A stretch of DNA of 41,904 nucleotides from Opitutaceae bacterium (GTDB lineage: Bacteria > Verrucomicrobiota > Verrucomicrobiia > Opitutales > Opitutaceae), in contig JAPKDW010000007.1 in the NCBI GenBank assembly GCA_028822375.1, positions 1 through 41,904 on the forward strand, given 5' to 3'. This document shows, piece after piece, positions 14,928 to 23,295 of this stretch. The position numbers and the translations under genes were made by a program. A model generated the notes under the pieces. The model did no database searches. It was not told where the DNA came from and was given only the letters and a program-made list of their open reading frames with translations. Numbering within the stretch: position 1 is the stretch's first letter; every line of letters starts with the position of its first letter.

Positions 14928-15716
14928 ATGAGATATAGAACGGGAATCACCTGGATCACCTGCCTTTCTCTTGACGCCCCTCTCGTCGCGATAGTTTGGC
15001 AAAATGCCGTATCAACGAGTTTTTCACTCCAGATCAACTGGCATCATCGCGTACTCGTTTTCCTCTCAGTATGGCTTGGCTACTCCGCAGATCGATGGTT
15101 TGATGCTTGGCGACACAAAGAAAACATTTCCCAAAGACATCTATTTTTCTCACACTACCGTTGGCCGCTTCTCGCTATTTGGACAACCACATTAGTCAGT
15201 TCGTTTACCTTAGCGATCAATTCTCTCAATACCACAGAATTGATATTTGGAATGGCACTAACAATCTCCTCTATAGCGATCACCCTAGTCGTTCAATTCA
15301 TCACTCTTCAACATCTCCGAACTCTCGTAAAATCGCTTTTAACCGCTTCTCTCGTAACTGCTAGCGTTTTGCTTTTCGCCATTCCCGAAAGCGCGGATAA
15401 TCGATTGTCATCCGCATCCTTGTTACTCGCAATTTTCACTCTCAATTGCTCTTTTATCCATAATTGGGATCGAGAAATCGACCAGATCCAAGAGCAACTC
15501 CCCATCGACTCTACGCAAAGCAAAAGCCTCATGCTCGCCTTTTCTTTGGCGGTCGTCGTTTTGACTATACAATATTCAAATCCACTTTTCGCCTATACTC
15601 TCTCATCCACTCTCTTATTAACAACGATCCATCTTCTTCGCAATAGACTGCATCCAGAAACAAGACGAGCACTTGCCGACCTGAGCCTTCTAACGCCCCT
15701 GGCAATCCTCCTTTAA
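14928..15716 (+). CDS. Polytopic membrane protein, possibly UbiA-like
   Basis: Seven to nine hydrophobic segments; DRWFDAWRHKE resembles a UbiA Asp-rich region; INWHHRVLVFLSVWLGYSADRWFDAW. Confidence 0.6.
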   Translation: MRYRTGITWITCLSLDAPLVAIVWQNAVSTSFSLQINWHHRVLVFLSVWLGYSADRWFDAWRHKENISQRHLFFSHYRWPLLAIWTTTLVSSFTLAINSLNTTELIFGMALTISSIAITLVVQFITLQHLRTLVKSLLTASLVTASVLLFAIPESADNRLSSASLLLAIFTLNCSFIHNWDREIDQIQEQLPIDSTQSKSLMLAFSLAVVVLTIQYSNPLFAYTLSSTLLLTTIHLLRNRLHPETRRALADLSLLTPLAILL

Positions 15717-16384: not shown

Positions 16385-17842
16385 TCAACGCAACTCATTC
16401 GGGAGTTGTTCATATCTATATCTTAGAGACTCCAGGACCTTTTTAAATTCGTCCCTATCGAACTGCTTTCCCATCGGAAGGGATTCCTCGCTCAACAGGT
16501 TATTAATCAATGCGCAATATCGACTATCGACCATCAGTCCAAGCAGCTCTCCAGTCTTCGAGAAGACTAAGTCACCTTTGGTAGGAGAAAAGTCGCCGAA
16601 AATACGACTGAATACCTTGGACTGCATCCGAACGTAACCGGGAGTATTCGCGGTCAGTTTAAATTCAACTTCGCCATAATAATCCCCCTTTTCATCGATC
16701 AAAATCGCTTCGGAAAACTTGAATGGCTTCAGTGCCGTATAGAATAATTCACCTCCAAGAGATTCTGCTTCTTCTTTTGAGACCCGCGTCGCAGCGATCC
16801 TCGGGTCTAACGCCAAAAACTCCAGAACCGGTGGGACCAAACGAGCATCTCCTCGAACGAGTTCAGAGCTTACTCGGCGGTAACCCAAGGAACTCTTCCC
16901 GAGGCCCAATGGTGTCGAACTCAGATGAGAAAGCGCATAAATAGACTCTCCATCCGAAACAAGAATGGTCATCGCCTGCTCGTCATCCTTCAACTTTTGA
17001 CCGCGATAGTAACGATCAGAAGTAAACGTGGTCACGATTCGGCTCTGATTGAATTTTGAGAACAAAGTATTAGCATTAACCGGTAAGCTCGATCGAAACT
17101 CCTCCGTAAGATCCTGCGAACGCTCAGCTAATTCAGTTATCCCTTCAGCCATCTGAGTGGTTTGCGCTTGCAGCTCTTTGCGCTCAGCTCGCTCGGCAAC
17201 AACTTCGCCTTTAAGCGTATCGACATTCTCCTGAAGCATTCTTTTCTGCTCATCAGAAACACGTACTTGTATATTTAATTCTTGAATACGCGATTCCGCT
17301 TCTTTCTTCGCCACTTGCTCCTGCTTTAAAGCTTCCTCTTTCCGTTTAATCTGTTCCAACTTATCGTCTAATTCTTCTTGTAGCAAACGGGCCTGAGCCT
17401 CGGTTTGCTTCGCTTTCGATTCCAGCGATTGGTATCTCAACTCCAAATCGACAATCGATTCCTTGGCTTGTTTCGCGCTCTCCTGAAGAGTCTCCTTCTC
17501 TACTGCCAGTTCATCCTCACGAGCGCTAGCCAACTCCAAGTCGCCACGCAGGTCCTGGATTGACGCGTCTCTTTCATCAATACGCTTCTCAGCATCGTCC
17601 AACTCCTTCTGCGAACGCTGCGTTTCGTCCTGCAATTGCTCTTGAGCCACCTGCTCCTCTTCCAAGGAAGCTTTCAATGTATCCAACAAATCCTGCTCCA
17701 TCATCGCCATAGAGGAAACGCTCTGTTCTCCCGAGTCGGCGGGCAGTGTGTCCTCCGACTTCGTTTCCTCCTCCCAATCGACAAGCGACAAAAGGGTGAG
17801 AAGCAGAAAATCGCAGATGATTAATAACAACGTCTTATTCAT
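16385..17842 (-). CDS. N-terminally anchored coiled-coil protein with C-terminal trypsin-like-fold (degenerate) region; ExbD/MotB-like anchor candidate
   Basis: N-term TM with Asp: MNKTLLLIICDFLLLTLLSLVDWEEE; about 200 aa heptad-rich Glu/Lys/Gln region; C-term ...SPTKGDLVFSKTGELLGLMVDSRYCALI. Confidence 0.7.
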   Translation of the reverse strand: MNKTLLLIICDFLLLTLLSLVDWEEETKSEDTLPADSGEQSVSSMAMMEQDLLDTLKASLEEEQVAQEQLQDETQRSQKELDDAEKRIDERDASIQDLRGDLELASAREDELAVEKETLQESAKQAKESIVDLELRYQSLESKAKQTEAQARLLQEELDDKLEQIKRKEEALKQEQVAKKEAESRIQELNIQVRVSDEQKRMLQENVDTLKGEVVAERAERKELQAQTTQMAEGITELAERSQDLTEEFRSSLPVNANTLFSKFNQSRIVTTFTSDRYYRGQKLKDDEQAMTILVSDGESIYALSHLSSTPLGLGKSSLGYRRVSSELVRGDARLVPPVLEFLALDPRIAATRVSKEEAESLGGELFYTALKPFKFSEAILIDEKGDYYGEVEFKLTANTPGYVRMQSKVFSRIFGDFSPTKGDLVFSKTGELLGLMVDSRYCALINNLLSEESLPMGKQFDRDEFKKVLESLRYRYEQLPNELR

Positions 17843-17847
17843 CGTCG

Positions 17848-19548
17848 TTAGGCAGACTTCACCTTCGTACTCGTACTCAAGGTAGCGAGCTCTTCCTGGC
17901 TCGCGAGAATCAACTTGTTTTTAAACGGCCTCACCAACTGAATTTTTACGATCGCCACTCCTAAAATCCCGAAAAGGTTAGAGCTGTAGGCAGCGATCAA
18001 ATTCGCTTCAATTAGTCCCAATACTTGAAGAACCAAAGAAATACAGGTCCCAGCGATTCCAACGTAAAGCCCAGAGTCGAAAAGGTTTTCCTCGTTCTCC
18101 ATCAGCTTTAATTTGATAAGATTATCGTAATCGCTTCGATCGACTTGACGCACTTTTAAGAGACAGATCATAAAGACCAGTATCTGGAGCGTAAAAAAGA
18201 AGGAAACGGATAGCAGTGTTGCGGGTTCCATAGATGCAGTAGGTTCGGTTTCTACGATAACGGTTTCGCCATCTACTTGAGCAAGTACCGGCATTACAAA
18301 TTTAAATGAGTATCCTTGAATCTCGTCGCTGCCAGCCAGGTGAGGTTCACTCAGAATGACAAGGACGATAACGGAGGCGAGCGAAACGAACAGCCTCTGA
18401 GCGCTCGCGAGTAATTTCGGGTTTGATTCACGATATGAACGATTAAATCCACCCAAGCCCCAAAAGACTAAAAACGCTCCTAGAAAATAGGCCAAGTATT
18501 TTACTGCGAGAGACGACTTTGGATTCTGAAGACTATAGCTAACGAGATATGCCTCGAACGAAGAGACCTCTACCGAACCCGCATCTGCTTCCAAAGGAAG
18601 TTGCTCCCTCACAAGCATCTTTATCGCGTCCACGCCATACCCCGCCGCAACGCGCAAGGCATCTATCCCATCGTCGCCGAATAGTCCGAGAAACTGCATC
18701 ACGCGGGCTGGATCATCCACCACCATCGCAGACGCGTAAACCAATGGAGCCACATCCGCTCTCCGATGAAACGCATAACGCAGTTTCTTCACCGTATCCA
18801 AATCTTCGATCCTCCCGAAAAGCGCTTCAAGCTGCCCCCAATTCAACGAGCGAGACAACGAAAGCGCATCGAGATAGAAATTTTCCAAGACCGCCACATC
18901 GCCTGACGCCAACGCATCCGCAATGCGACTCCTTAATTCTCGCTTTAGCGTCGGCCGCAGCCGATCCCCCTGAACGAGAAGCCCGAGAGTTAGTAACGTT
19001 CCTTCCAACGGCCGGCCAGAAACGCTTTGAACAGGAAACAGTCGCTTGTAAGTTGATAGCCTACCGGTTTCCATCAAGTCGCGAACCATCGGGTCACGCG
19101 AATTCTCAAGTAGCCCTCGAATAGCATCGCGGCAAGGCTTCGAAAGAGCGACTCCAAGAATTCCCGGCTGATCCGAATAGTCGGCGAGTGGCACCTCATC
19201 AAGAGCCGCTTCAAGAAACGGATCCCATGCTCCCCAGCGGCTCAGCACCGGATTCAGATCTTCCCACTTTGTCAATTGATCCTCGAGAGCCTCTACGCCA
19301 TCTAAGCCCGCGATCTGATTTGCCTCTAGGTACTGACGAGCCAATCCCGCCTCTTCCTCCTCCACTGCCATTTCCGCCAAGTCCACCATTGATGCCGAAC
19401 GAACGCCCGCTTCATGGAGGATTGCTCTTGGTATCGATTTAAAACGCGACGGAATAAGCCAACCAAAACCCACCAGAACAACCCCCAGGACCAACAGGAC
19501 CAAGGGGCCAACGATTCGGCTAAGATTGTTATTCTTGAGAGACGTCAT
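17848..19548 (-). CDS. Multi-pass membrane protein with C-terminal ExbB/MotA-like TM pair (candidate)
   Basis: TM1 at N-terminus, about 300 aa soluble helical region, then several TMs; C-term LFDSGLYVGIAGTCISLVLQVLGLIEANLIAAYSSNLFGILGVAIVKIQLVRPFKNKLI. Confidence 0.65.
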   Translation of the reverse strand: MTSLKNNNLSRIVGPLVLLVLGVVLVGFGWLIPSRFKSIPRAILHEAGVRSASMVDLAEMAVEEEEAGLARQYLEANQIAGLDGVEALEDQLTKWEDLNPVLSRWGAWDPFLEAALDEVPLADYSDQPGILGVALSKPCRDAIRGLLENSRDPMVRDLMETGRLSTYKRLFPVQSVSGRPLEGTLLTLGLLVQGDRLRPTLKRELRSRIADALASGDVAVLENFYLDALSLSRSLNWGQLEALFGRIEDLDTVKKLRYAFHRRADVAPLVYASAMVVDDPARVMQFLGLFGDDGIDALRVAAGYGVDAIKMLVREQLPLEADAGSVEVSSFEAYLVSYSLQNPKSSLAVKYLAYFLGAFLVFWGLGGFNRSYRESNPKLLASAQRLFVSLASVIVLVILSEPHLAGSDEIQGYSFKFVMPVLAQVDGETVIVETEPTASMEPATLLSVSFFFTLQILVFMICLLKVRQVDRSDYDNLIKLKLMENEENLFDSGLYVGIAGTCISLVLQVLGLIEANLIAAYSSNLFGILGVAIVKIQLVRPFKNKLILASQEELATLSTSTKVKSA

Positions 19549-21156: not shown

Positions 21157-23295
21157 CTACATGCTGCGAATCAACCTGATCGATATCTCAGCCCCGTCGC
21201 CTTCCATACGATATCCATCCGTCTTCAATGCGAGTCGAGTAACCGTACTAGGTCTGAAAAACTCAGGAGCGTCGCCTCCCGGTTGATCTTCGAACGCGAC
21301 CGTCGTTAAATTTAACAAAGCCTGAGTATCTCCTCCTTTCCCCTCTATGATATCCAGGATTCCTGTAAAATGCTTCGAGTGCGTCTGGTCAGAGTCGAGT
21401 TTGAGTATTCCCTTTATCAGGCCTCCTTCGTTTCGAGTTTCCGTTATAATCATGGAGATTTCTCGAGCATCCGCTCCATCCACGCCAGCGATCGCCATAC
21501 CTTTGAAATACGAGCCTTTAGACAAAGATGTGGCCAAACGGTTTCGCCGCTCCATCCGTTGACGTTTCCGTTCGTTTTCTACCGCTACATACTGATTATC
21601 AAGGTGTTTTACCTCCTCAAGATAACTTTTTCCTGCTAGTTTGTAGGTTCTAATTAGGTATTCAAATTCTTTGGTGCCCACTTCCAAGGAAGCCTCATCA
21701 TCCAGGTCTACAACTTTACCTTGGCCCCAAATCAAATTCGAGTTTCCTCCCTCCACATGCAAATTCGAGAAAGTCCATCCCTTCTCCACAGTTTCTCTCG
21801 AAAGTCTAAAGTTCGCCGTCAACGGGAAGCTCTCACCCTTATGAGCCGACAATTGGTACAGTTTCTTCCATGGCTGCTCAGGCGGCATCAACGCCATCTC
21901 TGGATACTCCTCGGATACGAATAACGCCGCAGCCTCAATATCGCTTCGCTCGAATTCAATCTGCGGATATACGAGCGCATTTTCGACGGGCAAATAAAGA
22001 TCGCTCGTCAAATGCGCCTCCATTTTCACTTCGATCAAGACTTCCGTGTCCGAGGCCTGACGAATTTCAGTACTAAAACCTTTCGCATGATAGTGACGCG
22101 CCTCTTCCAATTCATCGAAAACTTGCTTAGCGATCGTCGCAACATGCCAACTTAGGGTCGCCCCTTCGAGACCTCCACCATGGAGATATCCGTACAACTC
22201 TTCTTTTACGAAGGCTAGAGTGAGCCCAAGTCCAACAAACAATAGTCCTGCTGCCAAAGCCGTCGATTGCAGTACTCTTCCAACGATTCCTCTAGATGGA
22301 CCCGATTTTAAATGACTCTCATTCCCTGCCACCAACTCCGCGTTAGCCGCCAAACCTTCTTCTCCTTCCGCTTCAGCAAAGCCAATATTGAATCCATCCA
22401 GAGACGAGCTTTCTGCGAGAAGATTATCGTCATCCATCAAAAATGAAACATCGTCGAACGACTCCGGTTCCGACTGTTCTTCAGATTCCTCTTCTATCGT
22501 GGCCGGAGGCGGCTTTTCAGCGACAAGTTCCTTAGCTACTTCTGGCTCTTTAGACTCGACGACCTCTTCCTCTACGTAAATTTCGGCATCATCTAGGCAA
22601 ACAGGAGCTGGCGGTGGCGGTGGCGAATCCCCAGCTCGATCTGCAATATTAGAACCGACTACCCGTCTCGGCTGGTCAGGGGGTTCACCTGGGCTATCGC
22701 TGGCTGCCGTCATAAAAGTTTGAGGATCAGGCATCGCCATCAGCTCATTCTCTTCCACGTCGACAGGAACTTCATCTAAAACCTCCTCCTCCGCTTTTTC
22801 AACCGGAAGCTGAAAATCTCCGCCGCTCAAAATGCTACCCGCCTGAGCCAGAAGCTCTTCTGAAGTCGGCAATGAAGAAGCGCCCTCCCCCGAAGCGTCA
22901 ACACTATCAACTTCCTCTTCTTCCGCAAATGCATTAGCAACTTCATTGCGAATATCAACTGCTGCCGAGTCATCGATCTCCAAATCTATTTCGGCGGTCG
23001 ATTCCACCAAATCAGGAGACGACTCTTCGATTTCAGTATTATCCTCAATCTCAAGTCCCAAAAGATCGGAACCAATATCGATCCCTCCAAGTAACCCCTC
23101 TACGTCACCGCCAAAAGACTCTACCGAAGGTTCATCAAAGTTCGCCGGCTGCGGTTCATCGATTTTGGCAGGCTCAGGCGCTTCCCCGCCGTTATCGGCA
23201 GGAACTACTGAATCGAGATTTGAAGAATCAGGTTCTTCAAACTCGGAACGTTGAGAATCGGACTGAGCCATATAAGGTTTTGCCAATCCCGCCAA
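21157..23295 (-). CDS. Single-pass membrane protein with long acidic low-complexity N-terminal region
   Basis: 712 aa; acidic repeats (EEEEVDSVDAS, EVVESKEPEVAKEL), PPPPPAP, TM GIVGRVLQSTALAAGLLFVGLGLTLAFV, then a folded C-terminal domain. Confidence 0.75.
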   Translation of the reverse strand: MAGLAKPYMAQSDSQRSEFEEPDSSNLDSVVPADNGGEAPEPAKIDEPQPANFDEPSVESFGGDVEGLLGGIDIGSDLLGLEIEDNTEIEESSPDLVESTAEIDLEIDDSAAVDIRNEVANAFAEEEEVDSVDASGEGASSLPTSEELLAQAGSILSGGDFQLPVEKAEEEVLDEVPVDVEENELMAMPDPQTFMTAASDSPGEPPDQPRRVVGSNIADRAGDSPPPPPAPVCLDDAEIYVEEEVVESKEPEVAKELVAEKPPPATIEEESEEQSEPESFDDVSFLMDDDNLLAESSSLDGFNIGFAEAEGEEGLAANAELVAGNESHLKSGPSRGIVGRVLQSTALAAGLLFVGLGLTLAFVKEELYGYLHGGGLEGATLSWHVATIAKQVFDELEEARHYHAKGFSTEIRQASDTEVLIEVKMEAHLTSDLYLPVENALVYPQIEFERSDIEAAALFVSEEYPEMALMPPEQPWKKLYQLSAHKGESFPLTANFRLSRETVEKGWTFSNLHVEGGNSNLIWGQGKVVDLDDEASLEVGTKEFEYLIRTYKLAGKSYLEEVKHLDNQYVAVENERKRQRMERRNRLATSLSKGSYFKGMAIAGVDGADAREISMIITETRNEGGLIKGILKLDSDQTHSKHFTGILDIIEGKGGDTQALLNLTTVAFEDQPGGDAPEFFRPSTVTRLALKTDGYRMEGDGAEISIRLIRSM

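Follow-up and report, generated by a model that had tools for sequence, protein, structure and literature searches.

Two adjacent genes, here called A and B, form a conserved pair encoding a predicted six-helix membrane protein and a single-helix coiled-coil partner. The pair matches no described family, though in layout it is similar to the ion-driven motors that serve flagella and iron uptake. We lean towards the interpretation that A and B form an ion-driven energiser working like the 5:2 motors MotAB, ExbBD, TolQR, ZorAB and GldLM, with B as a shaft that carries a non-catalytic HtrA-fold tip. The genes lie in a 41,904-nucleotide stretch of DNA from an Opitutaceae bacterium, the whole of which we call the window, at the positions and sizes (566 and 485 aa) given to them in an earlier sequence-only reading. 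The features discussed below are as follows.

17848..19548, minus strand: gene A, 566-aa membrane protein with six predicted TM helices, candidate outer ring subunit (open reading frame, homologs, AF2 model)
18526..19455, minus strand: helical soluble domain of A, residues ~32-341, ~300 aa, between TM1 and TM2 (AF2 helices)
17920..18420, minus strand: core of A, residues ~377-543, four predicted TM helices in a MotA-like order (short homologs, hhalign, conservation)
18046..18048, minus strand: Thr501 of A, in GxxGT, first candidate polar residue of a pore ring (conservation)
17977..17982, minus strand: Ser523-Asn524 of A, second candidate ring residues (conservation)
16385..17842, minus strand: gene B, 485-aa single-TM coiled-coil partner, candidate axle or shaft (open reading frame directly downstream of A)
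17783..17842, minus strand: predicted N-terminal TM helix of B, MNKTLLLIICDFLLLTLLSL, residues 1-20 (AF2 helix 2-20, conservation)
17810..17812, minus strand: Asp11 of B, mid-membrane acidic residue (68 of 68 aligned proteins)
17093..17701, minus strand: coiled coil of B, residues 48-250 (AF2, heptad periodicity)
16388..17074, minus strand: tip of B, residues 257-485, predicted HtrA/Deg trypsin-fold domain (Foldseek on the AF2 model, residue columns)

Co-occurrence and genomic setting of A and B

The gap between A and B is 5 bp in the window, and the two genes overlap by 4 bp in several relatives, which suggests translational coupling. Homologs of A occur in 41 of 57 relatives. In a sample of 289 genomes from the window's phylum, A is present in 97 and the C-terminal domain of B, detected with two profiles, is also present in 97; both are found in 96 genomes, A alone in one, B alone in one and neither in 191. 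In all 96, the two genes share a contig and strand and B follows A, with no more than 1.7 kb between the matched parts; B is directly 3' of A in every sampled locus whose contig continues. The association is essentially complete across these 289 genomes, which are related to one another, and the pair is no chance arrangement of open reading frames. The sequence-only reading had proposed a conserved two-gene membrane module, and the near-complete co-occurrence and adjacency bear this out. It had also named a failure of the genes to co-occur in other genomes as grounds for giving up the module; this is clearly not what we find, since 96 of the 97 A-bearing genomes carry B.

Apart from coiled-coil noise in B, neither protein is matched in Pfam, NCBIfam or PDB, and PDB sequence searches with A and B returned coiled-coil or chance matches at most. 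Conservation peaks in the C-terminal TM pair of A and the N-terminal helix of B. One genome of the same genus has a remnant of gene A with several in-frame stops (G005:C12:288445-289282), indicating that genomes can lose the system.

A divergent peptide deformylase gene faces A in the window, and a methyltransferase gene follows B on the opposite strand. Adjoining the methyltransferase gene is a 262-aa hydrophobic protein (14928-15716), and a 712-aa open reading frame lies on the minus strand at 21157-23295; neither has a Pfam match. At loci with the short form of A (described below), genes of one cluster lie downstream of B in 6 of 20 cases (L157, L159, L160, L162, L168 and L174), and the two members scanned (L157 and L168) are eukaryote-like Ser/Thr protein kinases.

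A is normally present in one copy per genome. Searches of plasmids with long A and of phages with short A gave no matches, and thus there is no sign of mobile defence. The absence from the searched plasmids and phages, together with the stable single copy, points to a housekeeping envelope role for A-B rather than one in mobile defence.

Predicted architecture of the two proteins

The AF2 model of A (mean pLDDT 88) places TM helices at residues 8-31, 343-369, 378-400, 442-471, 492-509 and from 517 onward, six in all, with the helical soluble domain at 41-341. The charges of the loops would fit an N terminus on the inside and a 300-residue domain on the outside; we suspect that this is the topology and that the domain is probably periplasmic. 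The C-terminal TM pair and the ~300-aa soluble domain described in the sequence-only reading both correspond to modeled helices (492-509 and 517 onward; 41-341). Its count of TM helices was right in adding one at the N terminus (8-31) and overlooked three more (343-369, 378-400 and 442-471).

A is ~550-570 aa long within Opitutales. Outside that order, matches mostly span just the last ~110-180 residues, and the gene encodes a standalone protein of ~180 aa that lacks the ~300-aa domain and in other families again has B next downstream; forms of ~560-600 aa occur in 3 of the 20 loci fetched from outside Opitutales. Short-form and long-form A are homologous by hhalign (probability 97.7%), and the short form has four hydrophobic helices. 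These four helices, the TM placement in the AF2 model and the loop charges argue for a MotA-like four-helix order in the core of A, with a much shorter cytoplasmic loop. The core contains the motifs NEENLFDxGLYxGIxGT and AAYSSNLFGI. The Thr501 position is invariably T in long-form A and is T or S in short-form A. At Ser523-Asn524 the serine is invariant, and the second position is N in long forms and T in short forms.

The model of B (mean pLDDT 83) contains helices at 2-20, 48-201 and 215-250, followed by a beta domain at 257-456 and a final helix. The TM helix is the best-conserved part of the N-terminus of B. Asp11 within it is invariant in 68 of 68 aligned long-form B proteins and is also found in 20 of 20 distant B proteins; Asp22 is not conserved, its column in the long-form alignment holding R, K, N, D or S. 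At some short-form loci the membrane helix of B reads MLDVMVLSVLAL, which is close to ExbD/TolR signatures. Hydrophobic periodicity in B peaks at 3.50, as expected for a coiled-coil heptad, and helix 48-201 (154 residues) alone would extend ~23 nm. This is about the usual quoted width of the Gram-negative periplasm. Thus, the single N-terminal TM helix with a buried Asp, the long coiled coil (helix 48-201) and the C-terminal domain (257-456) that had been read from the sequence are all recovered in the model.

A long coiled coil ending in a binding-type domain could also belong to a passive, static linker between the inner membrane and the outer membrane or wall, with the Asp serving in helix-helix packing. 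We consider a tether of this kind quite unlikely. Keeping an invariant Asp halfway along a TM helix carries a cost and would be uncommon in a simple anchor, and the best-conserved part of A is a TM pair with polar residues in its helices.

The tip of B is predicted to have an HtrA/trypsin fold. A Foldseek search with the AF2 model of B gave 59 matches at E<=1e-3, and among the matches listed all are HtrA/Deg or trypsin-like; the best is Deg2 (E 4.9e-6, probability 1.00), and DegS and HtrA1 also appear. An hhalign comparison of the tip with local HtrA proteins was below significance, so sequence profiles give no support for the fold. In a weak alignment that pairs GELLGLM of the tip with the HtrA strand GRLIGIN, the catalytic Ser position is R, T or K in 65 of 68 proteins and S in 2 of 68, and the catalytic Asp column is hydrophobic in nearly all. 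The residue aligned with the catalytic His (H306) is kept within Opitutales only and is lost in distant forms. By these residue columns, which come from the same weak alignment, the tip lacks the His-Asp-Ser triad, and R, T or K at the position of the catalytic Ser indicates that it is probably a pseudoprotease. The tips of long-form and short-form B are homologous (96.7%).

Resemblance to stators and to KwaA

A has a GLxGTV-type motif at the start of its penultimate TM helix and a polar residue in its last. The latter is a second polar residue, at the position of the pore threonine of ExbB (T-x-x-G): Ser523-Asn524 lie three to four residues before a Gly, as in ExbB. The strict motif, P-x(2,3)-G-L-[FL]-G-[TS]-V, is found in short-form A, and long forms, including A of the window, have a relaxed GxxGT. 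The pattern P-x(2,3)-G[LI][LFM]G[TS][VI], written down after both families had been seen and thus post hoc, has 41 matches in 1.7 million residues of open reading frames, 20 in ExbB, 21 in the A family and none elsewhere. A profile of the A core ranks 14 ExbB proteins above 128 other membrane open reading frames of the fetched loci, possibly with shadow frames among them, with an AUC of 0.90 (0.56 for the reversed profile). In the known motors ZorAB and ExbBD, a ring of Ser/Thr surrounds the Asp (PMC11890865, PMC12215075).

Formal tests of membership gave a different answer. In 12 genomes the Pfam model PF01618 does not match the A family at a threshold as loose as E 10, and neither A nor B has a significant match to MotA/ExbB or ExbD/MotB models at any threshold tried. 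The NCBIfam model exbB2 matches one A-family member, at E 0.46 only. An hhalign comparison of A with ExbB of its own genome gave a probability of ~10% over short colinear pieces only, and Foldseek with the full-length model of A returned no stator and no usable match. By Pfam, B has neither an ExbD periplasmic domain nor an OmpA-like peptidoglycan-binding domain; its tip is predicted to be HtrA-like instead. Because every formal model-based test fails, we liken A-B to a 5:2 motor, with moderate confidence that it works like one, and stop short of assigning it to those families. The resemblance of A to MotA/TolQ/ExbB that was noted from sequence therefore stands for the motif, the order of TM helices and the paired polar residues, and is not supported for membership in PF01618; a profile comparison of the kind suggested at that time gave ~10% by hhalign, beside the AUC of 0.90 in the ranking of ExbB proteins. 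The proposed placement of B with ExbD/MotB did not hold up by Pfam, and the single TM helix with its Asp is a point of agreement.

ExbB-ExbD and TolQ-TolR share with A-B the GL[LF]GTV motif, the second polar residue, the order of TM helices and an adjacent single-TM partner with an Asp. This similarity of motif and topology could mean that A-B is a diverged but true TolQ/ExbB-ExbD pair on ordinary Ton/Tol duty. We think this very improbable: the same genome has 12 PF01618 and 10 PF02472 matches elsewhere, so the Ton/Tol jobs are covered, and B has no ExbD domain, with A and B matching neither model. A-B also differs from these pairs in its short cytoplasmic loop and, in Opitutales, the extra 300-aa domain of A, and B, a coiled-coil protein of 485-630 aa, differs from ExbD/TolR. 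We rejected assignment to ordinary TolQR/ExbBD, as A and B fall outside those models and the genome has other copies.

The core of A also shows a weak sequence affinity to KwaA of the Kiwa defense system, which the sequence-only reading did not foresee. Among short-form A proteins, L168:2908-3447 is matched by PADLOC's model of KwaA at E 8.4e-7, and in all the model matches 5 of 16 A-family members; it does not match A of the window. Four of its six matches in the 289 phylum genomes are A-family genes, which could be a hint of a remote link to Kiwa or a source of false positives in Kiwa annotation. Full copies of KwaA are ~180-197 aa, similar to the A core in size and TM layout, and share an E-x-x-N..F.P.Y.G.F-like motif before TM3 (acidic-Asn...Pro-x-Tyr-x-Gly). 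Like A-B, Kiwa has its partner gene next to the four-TM gene. Rather than a motor, KwaA is a sensor that forms tetramers (PMC12904381), and A might likewise be a tetrameric four-TM scaffold or sensor, with B as a periplasmic sensing rod, that detects perturbation of the membrane or envelope without transducing ion flow. We regard a sensor of this type as rather unlikely. An hhalign comparison of the A profile with KwaA gave a probability of just 1.4%. In KwaA sequences the polar residues of GxxG[TS] and T-x-x-G are absent, and with them a polar ring; KwaA also has no Asp-bearing TM partner. KwaB is a cytosolic DNA-binding protein, and no relative of it was found at the A loci: across the 289 genomes PF16162 gives a single weak match, which falls outside the genomes listed with A, and the PADLOC KwaB model does not match B. 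A sensor would also leave the invariant Asp in the membrane helix of B unexplained, and the lack of phage or plasmid matches described above does not favor it. The likeness of A and KwaA could reflect either a common ancestor or convergence. A separate locus in the same phylum (L207:988-2411) carries a KwaA-like gene with a 276-aa gene after it and is likely a Kiwa locus, at which the curated KwaB model is silent.

A possible envelope motor and its nearest relatives

Returning to the energiser that we favor, we infer a function, an oligomeric state and stoichiometry, ion coupling, rotation and a target for A-B as follows. The last four TM helices of A would form a ring in the inner membrane, and a dimer of B would be seated in it through its N-terminal helix. 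Asp11 would bind the ion through its carboxylate, opposite a ring of Thr/Ser (and Asn) contributed by A. The flow of ions would turn or pull the coiled-coil shaft of B, which may be long enough to span the periplasm, so that the tip, a non-catalytic HtrA-fold domain, could engage a target close to the wall or outer membrane. In Opitutales, the extra ~300-aa domain of A and its two additional TM helices might form a periplasmic collar round the shaft. Two further observations argue against a motor: the core of A is without the large cytoplasmic region of MotA/ExbB, and the KwaA model fits it better than the stator models do.

The nearest published idea is the TolQ-like/TPH-vWA family, reported also in Verrucomicrobia, in which an Asp-bearing axle helix is fused to a vWA tip (Mol Biol Evol 2025, PMC12204202); it provides a precedent for Asp-helix axles bearing other tips. 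As proposed for A-B, these motors have two parts, with an axle that combines a conserved Asp in its TM helix with an unusual periplasmic tip, and neither system has TolR/ExbD. The TPH-vWA ring is a recognizable TolQ homolog, and the pairs are mostly heterologous (PMC12204202). In contrast, the ring of A-B is not recognizable, its shaft is predicted to end in an HtrA-fold pseudoprotease and a single gene encodes the axle. The TPH-vWA paper (PMC12204202) has no mention of protease, trypsin, HtrA or coiled coil, and in the open-access literature we came across no axle described as carrying an HtrA-fold tip.

Other two-part motors share some of this layout. MotAB, ExbBD, GldLM and their relatives were covered in a 2022 review (PMC9389320). 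GldL-GldM, the motor of T9SS and gliding, resembles A-B in combining a ring with a long periplasm-spanning shaft (PMC9389320); beyond this no similarity was found, the tip of GldM differs and B has an invariant Asp, a comparison based on the review's description and general knowledge. Zorya also has a two-gene motor, ZorAB, with 5:2 stoichiometry and a Ser/Thr ring with an Asp (PMC11890865). However, the tail of ZorA is cytoplasmic, ZorB binds peptidoglycan and A-B matches no Zor model. We rejected Zorya on the lack of a PADLOC Zor match, and the earlier remark that no Zorya effectors are adjacent agrees with our finding no ZorC or ZorD by Pfam among eight nearby genes of the window, and no PADLOC match.

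We speculate, as a possible though doubtful extension, that A-B represents an unrecognized class of ion-driven motors of the envelope that is widespread within a single phylum, and in which the ring links the MotA/ExbB and KwaA folds and a pseudoprotease-tipped shaft acts at the outer membrane. If confirmed, A-B would be a ring-and-axle system that standard family models have missed, present in about a third of the sampled genomes of the phylum, and a natural experiment in what force-transmitting shafts can carry at their end. A shared origin of KwaA-type defense membrane proteins and ion-driven stators would then become testable.
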